Shown in pieces: positions 35,833 through 39,366 of a DNA stretch of 64,000 bases. The stretch is from the NCBI GenBank assembly GCA_945888325.1, contig CAMDAC010000006.1, positions 62,001 through 126,000 of the forward strand. Reading direction: 5' to 3'. Positions within the stretch are counted from its first letter, which is position 1. Every line of letters starts with the position of its first letter. The DNA is from Candidatus Sulfopaludibacter sp. SbA3. Its GTDB lineage: Bacteria > Pseudomonadota > Alphaproteobacteria > Caulobacterales > Hyphomonadaceae. The notes below the pieces were generated by a model that saw only the letters and a list, made by a program, of their open reading frames with translations, ran no database searches and had not been told where the DNA came from. A program made the position numbers and the translations under genes.

Positions 35833-38016
<2,184 letters not shown>

Positions 38017-38153: not shown

Positions 38154-38456
38154 ATGTGGATTCGCCGCAAGGAACACTTCCGCAATGCGAGCGACCGGCC
38201 GGAGCGCTCGAAGGTCGCCGCGACGGTCTACTTCCGCCCCGACACAGCCGAGCCCCCGCCGCCGCAGGGCTGGGACGAGCGCTGCCCCCAATGCAGCGCC
38301 GCCATCCGCGTCTCGAGGCCCCGGCACGGCGGCACCGCCATCTCGGAAGTCCTCCCCTCCGGCGCCCTCATCCCCCATCCCTGCTTCGACCGGCTGCGCG
38401 GGAAGCGGGCGAGCGAAGAGACGATGGATTTGTTTGGCGACTGGAACCCGGCCTGA
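38154..38456 (+). CDS. Small conserved-looking Cys-containing protein
   Basis: A 100-residue protein with a strong AAGGAG Shine-Dalgarno ending 9 bases before the ATG. Cys44 and Cys47 (CPQC), His58, His75 and Cys77 could bind a zinc ion. The rest is basic and Pro-rich and ends DLFGDWNPA. I do not recognise the family. It lies 137 bases after uvrB on the same strand. An imperfect hairpin (about 38460-38489) follows its stop. Codon use matches neighbouring genes, which supports a real gene. Confidence 0.6.
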   Translation: MWIRRKEHFRNASDRPERSKVAATVYFRPDTAEPPPPQGWDERCPQCSAAIRVSRPRHGGTAISEVLPSGALIPHPCFDRLRGKRASEETMDLFGDWNPA

Positions 38457-38640
38457 GTTCCCCTCTCTGCCCGAAGACGGGGAAAGGGGTTCAGATTTTG
38501 CTCAGCGCACGGACCATTTCCTGCCGCGCTGCAGCGAATCCGCACCCTGTCTTAAATCTGTGAAATTTATCGCCCGAAACGCGAATCACCCCCTCGACTC
38601 ACACCAGATTTGGTGAGATCGTTACGTCAAGCCAACGAAA

Positions 38641-39212
38641 TCCCGGCGGGAGACAACCCGCAAAGTGGAGCGAAGGCGAGCCCATCGCCCCCGCGCGGAG
38701 GGCCGGGCCAGGAGCAGAGCCGGGAGACCGGGCGCGCGAAAGGCCAGGCAGGACGCACGGGATAAAAACAGGCGATGGCCCATGGCAGCGGGAGCTAGAC
38801 CCGCGAGATGGGAGCCGTACGCCGTAACCGGGGCGCAAACCCGAACTACGGTGGCCAAGAGCCCGAAAGCTCCATCAGGGAGTACGAAGAAGGACTGTGC
38901 CCGCAAGGGCGTGGAACGGACAAGTGCGACCAGCGGTGGAGCGCCAGAGATGGGCGGGAGGGTCGGCCAAAGTCCTTGAACTGCAAGCGGCCCCCCGGCT
39001 GCGAGCGAGACAAGGCACCGCAAAAGGAGCGTGCGCCTGCCAGGGCGAACGTCCAGATGCGGAAGGGTGATGGAAGGGCCGCGAAAGTAGGCCGGAAAAA
39101 AACCCGGTGTCTCCGAAGAGCGTCTCCGAGTGCTAGCACTAGTAATCGGTAGCCCGATTCGAAACACCTTGGAAGGCGCGGCGCCCCTCAAAAGGCACCG
39201 CGCCTTTCTTCG
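38641..39212 (+). ncRNA. Candidate large structured non-coding RNA
   Basis: No credible coding frame covers this stretch. The plus strand is strongly biased: in 38641-39120, T makes up only about 8% of bases while A is roughly three times as common, unlike any neighbouring gene or spacer. Many short perfect hairpins are visible: GCGGG/CCCGC (38788-38804), CCGTA...TACGG with an inner CGGG/CCCG (38822-38851), GAGC-CCGAAA-GCTC (38859-38872), GCCC-GCAA-GGGC with a GNRA loop (38899-38910), AATCGG-TAGC-CCGATT near 39144, and a final terminator (39173-39212). The composition resembles stable catalytic or scaffold RNAs. It lacks RNase P signatures (GAGGAAAGTCC), a tmRNA tag or acceptor, and an SRP apical motif. 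The 5' end is uncertain; a CACCA/TGGTG hairpin at 38602-38615 may belong to it. Confidence 0.5.
39173..39212 (+). terminator. Terminator at the end of the candidate RNA
   Basis: AAGGCGCGG (39173-39181) pairs perfectly with CCGCGCCTT (39198-39206) and is followed by TCTTCGTT. It gives the RNA-like region a defined 3' end and indicates transcription on the plus strand. Confidence 0.7.
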
Positions 39213-39222
39213 TTGTGGAAAA

Positions 39223-39308: not shown

Positions 39309-39341
39309 ATAAAAAACCCCCGGCGCGGAACGCCGGGGGCT
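39309..39341 (-). terminator. Rho-independent terminator of the EF-hand gene
   Basis: CCCCCGGCG (39317-39325) pairs with CGCCGGGGG (39331-39339) around a 5-base loop; on the minus strand it is followed by TTTTTT. It lies 26 bases past the EF-hand stop codon. Confidence 0.85.
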
Positions 39342-39366
39342 TCGGTCAGCACGGGTCTTCAGGGCG

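Follow-up and report, generated by a model that had tools for sequence, protein, structure and literature searches.

What lies between uvrB and an EF-hand gene in this window, the whole 64-kb stretch of DNA analyzed here? The original prediction placed a large, folded noncoding RNA there, on the plus strand from 38641 to 39212. The locus has stood, but its limits have shifted: we place the transcript at about 38629 to about 39210 (plus strand, ~582 nt), with a promoter element that begins at 38593. The transcript start is estimated from the position of a -10-like hexamer, and the RNA as a whole is delineated by its BLASTN relatives, an alignment of full-length elements (A1, below) and covariation. 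Its usual upstream neighbor, uvrB (35833..38016, plus strand), is recognized by Pfam UvrB domains and lies outside the RNA gene, and the EF-hand gene occupies the strand opposite to the RNA. A 100-aa ORF without a Pfam match sits between uvrB and the RNA (38154-38456, plus strand), and a strong inverted repeat with T-runs at 39313-39343 is probably the terminator of the minus-strand EF-hand gene. Beyond what had been predicted, the locus proves to have a promoter, a family-wide distribution and palindromic loops.

The composition of the element is as unusual as had been claimed, with T at 7.7% and A at 25.4% over 480 nt from 38641 (predicted, about 8% and 25%), and scanning the window in steps of 10 places the start of its lowest-T 480 nt at 38631. 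The plus strand of 38620-39212 folds at -266.1 kcal/mol (z = -3.97), a value equaled by none of 100 shuffles; the minus strand gives z = -1.66, with 1 of 100 shuffles as good. The absence of a credible protein-coding gene is likewise confirmed. Three ORFs lie over the element, a 278-aa frame on the minus strand and two on the plus strand, none with a Pfam match at E up to 1, and no ORF is conserved, the best-kept frame being free of stops in just 7 of 33 relatives. A coding gene is rejected on these two grounds. The long open frames are probably a product of the low T content, because a plus-strand stop codon always needs a T; minus-strand stops are scarce for the same reason, their complement reading TTA, CTA or TCA, each with a T.

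Nor does the element belong to a described class of RNA by any search we made, consistent with the predicted failure to place it. The whole window has no Rfam match at gathering score, and the segment 38450-39370 gives 14 sub-threshold matches at E<=10, all of them far below threshold (CC1840, for example, reaches 22.3 bits where 50 are needed). Fifteen loci with relatives, searched against Rfam 15, returned 8 matches, all to RNase P or tRNA genes outside the element. RNase P RNA, tmRNA and 6S RNA are likewise structured bacterial RNAs, the first two comparable in size, but each has its single match at another place in the same genome: RNase P RNA (RF00010) at C23:4803-5177, tmRNA (RF01849) at C3:191189-191541, and 6S RNA (RF00013) at C20:9472-9630 with 46.4 bits, just at threshold. 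Covariance models of OLE, ROOL and GOLLD found no match at the window or at the 15 relative loci; we take OLE to be among the 4227 Rfam families searched, and ROOL and GOLLD to be in the library as well. A known RNA class is rejected because Rfam is negative at the locus and the genome has its RNase P RNA, tmRNA and 6S RNA matches at other sites. We regard the element as a large structured RNA of a new family, which the covariance-model test separates from OLE, ROOL and GOLLD. In open-licence PubMed Central, covered in part through the best-ranked papers only, we found no description of Hyphomonas noncoding RNAs or transcription starts.

The strongest evidence that the locus encodes an RNA comes from compensatory change among relatives. 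Alignment A1 comprises 33 full-length elements from Hyphomonas and was fitted to no structure; it omits 3 of 36 Hyphomonas carriers, namely G035 (locus L022, cut by a contig end), G096 and G099, and 26 of its sequences make up a second alignment, A2. RNAalifold predicts 77 pairs on A1, of which 36 changed on both sides, against 22.0 in shuffled alignments and 6-12 when partners were slid, and 97.0% of pair cells form standard pairs against 88.7% in shuffles; the number of further pair types barely exceeds the shuffles (84 against 79.5, with 28 of 500 shuffles as high). Across four genera, 39 selected sequences of the 5' core (A4) have 94.9% of cells paired against 77.7% in shuffles, and 35 of 45 pairs changed on both sides against 22.4, or 11-18 when slid. 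A4 and the larger alignment A5 (60 rows, 56 of them distinct, since L076, L079, L081 and L089 repeat L055, L045, L041 and L048) lean towards the model structure because they were fitted to it, A4 to the covariance model R1, which covers the 5' 223 positions. Shuffles do not model relatedness, whereas the slid control does, and compensatory changes exceed both controls in A1 and in A4, as a structured RNA gene would have them do. With no Rfam match, with homologs in hand and with strong covariation among them, the predicted large folded RNA gene gains firm support, and its fold is almost certainly under selection.

Individual parts of the fold differ in how they are conserved. The 5' hairpin GCGGGAGACAACCCGC (38646..38661, plus strand; helix 2 of A1) has 3 of 4 pairs changed on both sides and is 92.4% paired. 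It is followed by a core stem that encloses a branch (38682..38778, plus strand), with 38682-38692 paired to 38759-38778 and a GNRA-capped hairpin at 38719-38731; the corresponding helices 3-7 of A4, compared across genera, are 98.7, 99.1, 94.1, 97.4 and 96.3% paired. GNRA-like loops had been predicted, and one hairpin loop does read GAGA or GAAA in 53 of the 60 alignment rows. Among the best conserved structural units across genera is the hairpin GCCGUAACCGGGGCGCAAACCCGAACUACGGU (38821..38852, plus strand), where helix 10 of A4 has all 6 pairs changed on both sides at 98.2% paired, and helix 11 has 3 of 4 pairs invariant. Then comes a middle region (38862..39040, plus strand, limits approximate; columns ~240-495 of A1) so different in length and sequence between relatives that it is not alignable across clades. 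Towards the 3' end, a hairpin and a UUCG strand (39146..39161, plus strand) lead to a predicted closing helix of 39158-39161 with 38636-38639. Helices 1 and 17 of A1 are more than 98% paired yet almost invariant and carry no covariation support, which leaves the closing helix and the 3' hairpins as predictions. Full elements measure 472-590 nt in Hyphomonas, and other relatives with a terminator found by script run from about 290 to 591 nt; for L092 and L093 the script called a terminator early, probably in error.

Is this structure part of a transcription unit of its own? Upstream lies a -35-like element, CTCGACTC (38593..38600, plus strand), which contains a GANTC (CcrM) site and reads TCGACTC in relatives. 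Across 57 promoter loci (of which L076 repeats L055), TCGACTC stands at the same place in 55 and is missing from L096 and L097. A -10-like hexamer, GATCGT (38617..38622, plus strand), lies 17 nt from TCGACT and was recognized from the upstream regions of relatives, the hexamer following the TCGACTC element by 17 nt in those from Hyphomonas. A scan for the sigma-70 consensus found no promoter in the region of the RNA start; because the element is nevertheless conserved, we take it to be a conserved, nonconsensus promoter. Of 10 genomes searched with the pattern CTCGACTC-N11..18-ATCRTT, 9 yield the RNA promoter, and elsewhere in those ten the pattern occurs at two sites only, both in G020. These sites (C1:1518-1542 and C1:3768134-3768158; L134 and L139) are identical copies of CTCGACTCAAGCTTCCAGGATCATT that resemble the RNA promoter.

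Further upstream, many relatives carry a dyad, CCACAG..CTGTGG/A, with half sites 16-18 nt apart; the corresponding region of the window is 38531..38570 (no strand assigned), in which good conservation is limited to the right half, CTGTGAAATT (38558-38567). Defined leniently, as CACAG, CACAC or CACGG followed by CTGTG or TTGTG, the dyad is present at 49 of the 55 loci with TCGACTC, the window not being one of them, compared with 30 of 2280 pieces of 80 nt drawn at random from the same loci; the strict definition gives 23 of 55. No regulon emerged from a dyad search of 10 genomes: of its 4 matches, two fall at the RNA itself. The half site TCCACAG is similar to a DnaA box. The GACTC in the RNA promoter is a GANTC site, and in Caulobacter the regulator GcrA is reported to bind such sites when they are methylated and presumed to activate promoters that carry YGAKTCK (PMC7987155). 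YGAKTCK fits the other strand of the window's promoter, but not that of several relatives, so cell-cycle control of the promoter through GANTC and the dyad is only a suggestion.

At the far end, the predicted Rho-independent terminator is borne out at 39171..39208 (plus strand), as a stem followed by a T-rich tail. This stem, helix 18 of A1, is 95.7% paired, with compensatory changes at 10 of its 14 pairs, and terminators are kept in relatives despite differing stem sequences. From sequence comparison, then, a conserved promoter region, a conserved covarying fold and a covarying terminator are established for what reads as a free-standing gene.

The surroundings of this gene are not random. 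Of the 34 genomes that have the two on a single contig, 31 place the RNA downstream of uvrB in the same orientation, at a distance of 0.6-6.8 kb, and a random neighborhood is rejected on the strength of uvrB lying within 7 kb in those 31; in the other three the RNA is far from uvrB. A further 22 genomes have RNA and uvrB on different contigs, or no uvrB found. Neighbors differ in some clades, and promoter, RNA and terminator stay together. For instance, L009 (G016) and L108 (G096) have the RNA adjoining a separate RNase P RNA gene, far from uvrB, and in the g15 genomes (L094, L097 and L099) it lies within ~0.8 kb of two tRNA genes. L099 also has a small Xre-type regulator-like ORF, named by eye only, downstream of the RNA and convergent with it.

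How widely the gene occurs, and by what route, can be read from nested searches, for which the genus of the window is taken as Hyphomonas. BLASTN with 38620-39212 as the query gave relatives in 32 of 61 genomes (the window's own and 31 of 36 others of the same genus), and in 0 of 24 genomes of other families. A pattern for the 3' end matched 27 contigs in the named genome collection, most of them titled Hyphomonas or Hyphomonadaceae. A few matched MAG records are titled Acidobacteria, Sulfopaludibacter, Rhodobacterales or Alphaproteobacteria; the RNA is present in L041, L044 and L054, from records titled Acidobacteria or Sulfopaludibacter, and for L044 and L054 the title is probably wrong. R1 finds the RNA in 54 of 105 genomes of the family and 4 of 10 genera, and the wider model R2 adds carriers G077 and G078, making 56 of 105 Hyphomonadaceae genomes, always with one match each. 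Extended to the order, R2 matches 53 of 398 genomes, all Hyphomonadaceae (4 of 56 genera), and extended to the class 2 of 386, both in the window's genus. Outside the family, then, R2 found no relatives among the genomes sampled from the order and the class, in searches whose stricter filters and few scored candidates per genome may miss distant members.

Absences within the family were pursued more closely. A closer search of 38 of the 49 noncarrier genomes gave matches with E<=1 in 10, the best at 0.0108 and partial, and R2, applied to the uvrB loci of 16 noncarriers to see whether absence might be an artefact of assembly, gave five weak matches (best E 0.17), with the RNA not found; one CTCGACTC does stand at such a locus (L180), with no RNA behind it. 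Because the uvrB loci L177 (816 bases), L187 (635), L181 (1,780) and L176 (4,200) are short, absence from G015, G065, G086 and G003 rests on the genome-wide searches. As the gene is missing from about half of the family's genomes, it must be dispensable in some lineages. On a UvrB tree of 76 of 80 genomes (left out are three in which no UvrB was matched and G001, in which the match is divided between two contigs), the distribution of the 53 carriers needs 10 changes against 19.9 in shuffles, and strongly supported branches alone force at least 6, by a quick method and a single protein. One origin in the ancestor of the four genera with about nine losses would fit this distribution, and gain by transfer may have contributed in some lineages; we infer vertical descent with repeated loss.

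How might such an RNA act? A clue is offered by two hairpins whose loops are self-complementary. In proposed kissing loop 1 (38788..38804, plus strand), the hairpin exposes CUAG at 38795-38798, within a loop that reads AGCUAGA in most relatives. The center changes in others: to UCGA within CUCGAG (L007, L008) and within UUCGAA or alone (L092, L093), to CCGG within UCCGGA (L090, L091), and to GGCC in L097, where the stem was shifted by hand. When the hairpins were refolded locally, a 4-nt palindrome turned up in 13 of 18 distinct loops (53 of 60 rows); shuffling the loop letters gives a mean of 4.26, and none of 5000 shuffles reached 13. Two control hairpins have palindromes in 0 of 20 and 0 of 4 loops. 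A third control, the loop of helix 11, has them in 8 of 15 distinct loops against 2.39 in shuffles, chiefly as a conserved GCGC, and most of its variants (GCAC, GGAC) are nonpalindromic, with one palindromic exception (GUAC, L099). L030 (G004) has a loop 1 without a palindrome; for L092, L093, L097, L101, L102 and L128, none is left in the loop after local refolding, which pulls part of it into the stem.

Proposed kissing loop 2 (39130..39139, plus strand) is the palindrome GUGCUAGCAC, a hairpin GUG-CUAG-CAC. Either it or GUGCAUGCAC is present in 33 of 33 A1 copies and in 36 of 37 Hyphomonas loci, the 37th, L022, being cut by the contig end; outside Hyphomonas the palindrome occurs at 1 of 20 loci (L106). 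In L006 and L016-L020, GUGCAUGCAC replaces GUGCUAGCAC, a double change at neighboring bases that turns CUAG into CAUG. Neighboring bases are unable to pair with each other within one chain. This replacement probably arose twice, since the UvrB tree places L006 (G014) in the clade of the window and L016-L020 in a different one. Wherever loop 2 has CAUG, loop 1 remains CUAG, and where loop 1 is UCGA (L007, L008), loop 2 remains CUAG; the two loops therefore vary independently and do not pair with one another in these sequences. A cryo-EM study of OLE, ROOL and GOLLD treats palindrome switching at adjacent nucleotides as an argument for symmetric kissing loops in OLE and GOLLD, the OLE L9.3 loop switching from GGCC to GAUC or AGCU (PMC12286853). 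By the same argument, copies of the Hyphomonadaceae RNA would make homotypic contacts with one another. On these loop sequences, the chances that the RNA self-associates appear evenly balanced.

We lean towards a free-standing, multidomain noncoding RNA gene (~0.3-0.6 kb) whose product would act in trans through a homodimer or larger homo-oligomer. RNA polymerase would start near 38629, at the promoter that carries CTCGACTC; a regulator bound to the dyad, together with CcrM methylation of the GANTC site within CTCGACTC, may set the timing. The transcript would fold into a 5' core (~225 nt) and a 3' domain joined by a variable spacer, and its copies would join through their self-complementary loops, two of them in Hyphomonas, to form the homodimer or larger assembly. 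That assembly would then work in trans as a structural RNA or RNP, and not as the leader of a neighboring gene. Of this account, the free-standing gene is well supported, and action in trans is probable.

The same free-standing structured RNA could instead act as a monomer, a scaffold or decoy for one or more proteins, its palindromes being due to chance or to some other contact. A strong fold and an independent gene suit a monomer equally well, and loop 2 is missing from 19 of 20 non-Hyphomonas loci, just as L030 does without the loop 1 palindrome. This reading is unlikely, if deserving of real weight, as it must accommodate the excess of palindromes in loop 1 (13 of 18, where shuffles give 4.26), the 0 of 20 and 0 of 4 in two other hairpins, and a loop 1 core that changes into another palindrome. 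Exposed loops may also bring to mind a base-pairing regulatory RNA, whose loops would bind mRNAs with the remainder as a stabilizing scaffold; conserved loop sequences and a free-standing gene with a terminator are what one would expect of it. The conserved part, however, consists largely of helices with compensatory changes, unlike a short seed, and the loop 1 sequence differs between relatives, making regulation by base pairing improbable.

More improbable by far is a cis-acting structure, the leader or 3' UTR element of a neighbor such as uvrB or the EF-hand gene, even though uvrB is upstream on the same strand in 31 of the 31 genomes that have both within 7 kb. The RNA has its own conserved promoter region and terminator, its distance from uvrB ranges over 0.6-6.8 kb, in several clades its neighbors are RNase P RNA, tRNAs or other genes instead, and the EF-hand gene is on the opposite strand. 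Similar size and a GNRA-rich fold are what could be said for a strongly diverged representative of one of the known classes (RNase P, tmRNA, 6S, group I or II intron, OLE, ROOL or GOLLD), but the window and the element in 15 relative loci gave no gathering-score match in Rfam, and RNase P, tmRNA and 6S match other places in the same genome; we regard this as the least credible of all.

Returning to the trans-acting homo-oligomer, three large RNAs offer instructive comparisons. To our knowledge, the large ornate RNAs of bacteria are few and their functions are open questions, so an additional family, with carriers that include H. johnsonii, H. pacifica and H. polymorpha, a conserved promoter and predicted RNA-only self-association, is of interest in itself. 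ROOL and GOLLD RNAs are phage-associated, and OLE RNA belongs to a host group other than the Hyphomonadaceae. In OLE, the L9.3 palindromic loop forms a symmetric kissing loop in the dimer (PMC12286853); our RNA, known here from its sequence, resembles OLE in being large, covarying and bacterial and in a loop tetranucleotide that switches between palindromes, the single sequence signature compared. The same source describes ROOL as a large ornate RNA with kissing loops, a poorly conserved linker and an 8-chain cage, and GOLLD as a large ornate RNA whose symmetric kissing loops are backed by adjacent-nucleotide covariation (PMC12286853). The likeness to ROOL extends to large, ornate form and to the proximity of tRNA genes in three relatives (L094, L097 and L099). 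Unlike ROOL, the Hyphomonadaceae RNA has no match in Rfam or in phage records, is chromosomal and has a distribution that fits vertical descent, and it differs from GOLLD in that neither an Rfam match nor a phage association was found.

A bolder proposal, tentative and on the doubtful side, is that this is an undescribed class of self-assembling RNA, combining an RNA-only homo-oligomer with a replication-timed promoter (dyad regulator and CcrM). The carriers are bacteria with a budding life cycle; were the proposal true, the RNA would be an equivalent of OLE, ROOL and GOLLD that is encoded on the chromosome of dimorphic, budding bacteria and tied to their cell cycle, with two palindromic loops that evolve independently in Hyphomonas. 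Natural absences in close relatives provide ready comparisons for finding the role of the RNA.

A mobile or phage RNA is rejected, as BLASTN with 38580-39220, the window's copy being the only query, gave 0 matches in 50,697 phage and 72,556 plasmid records. One pattern match on a viral contig, L237, covers positions 194-214 of R2 only, with E = 0.00028 for that contig alone, and is taken as chance, being a 21-nt match inside an ORF.
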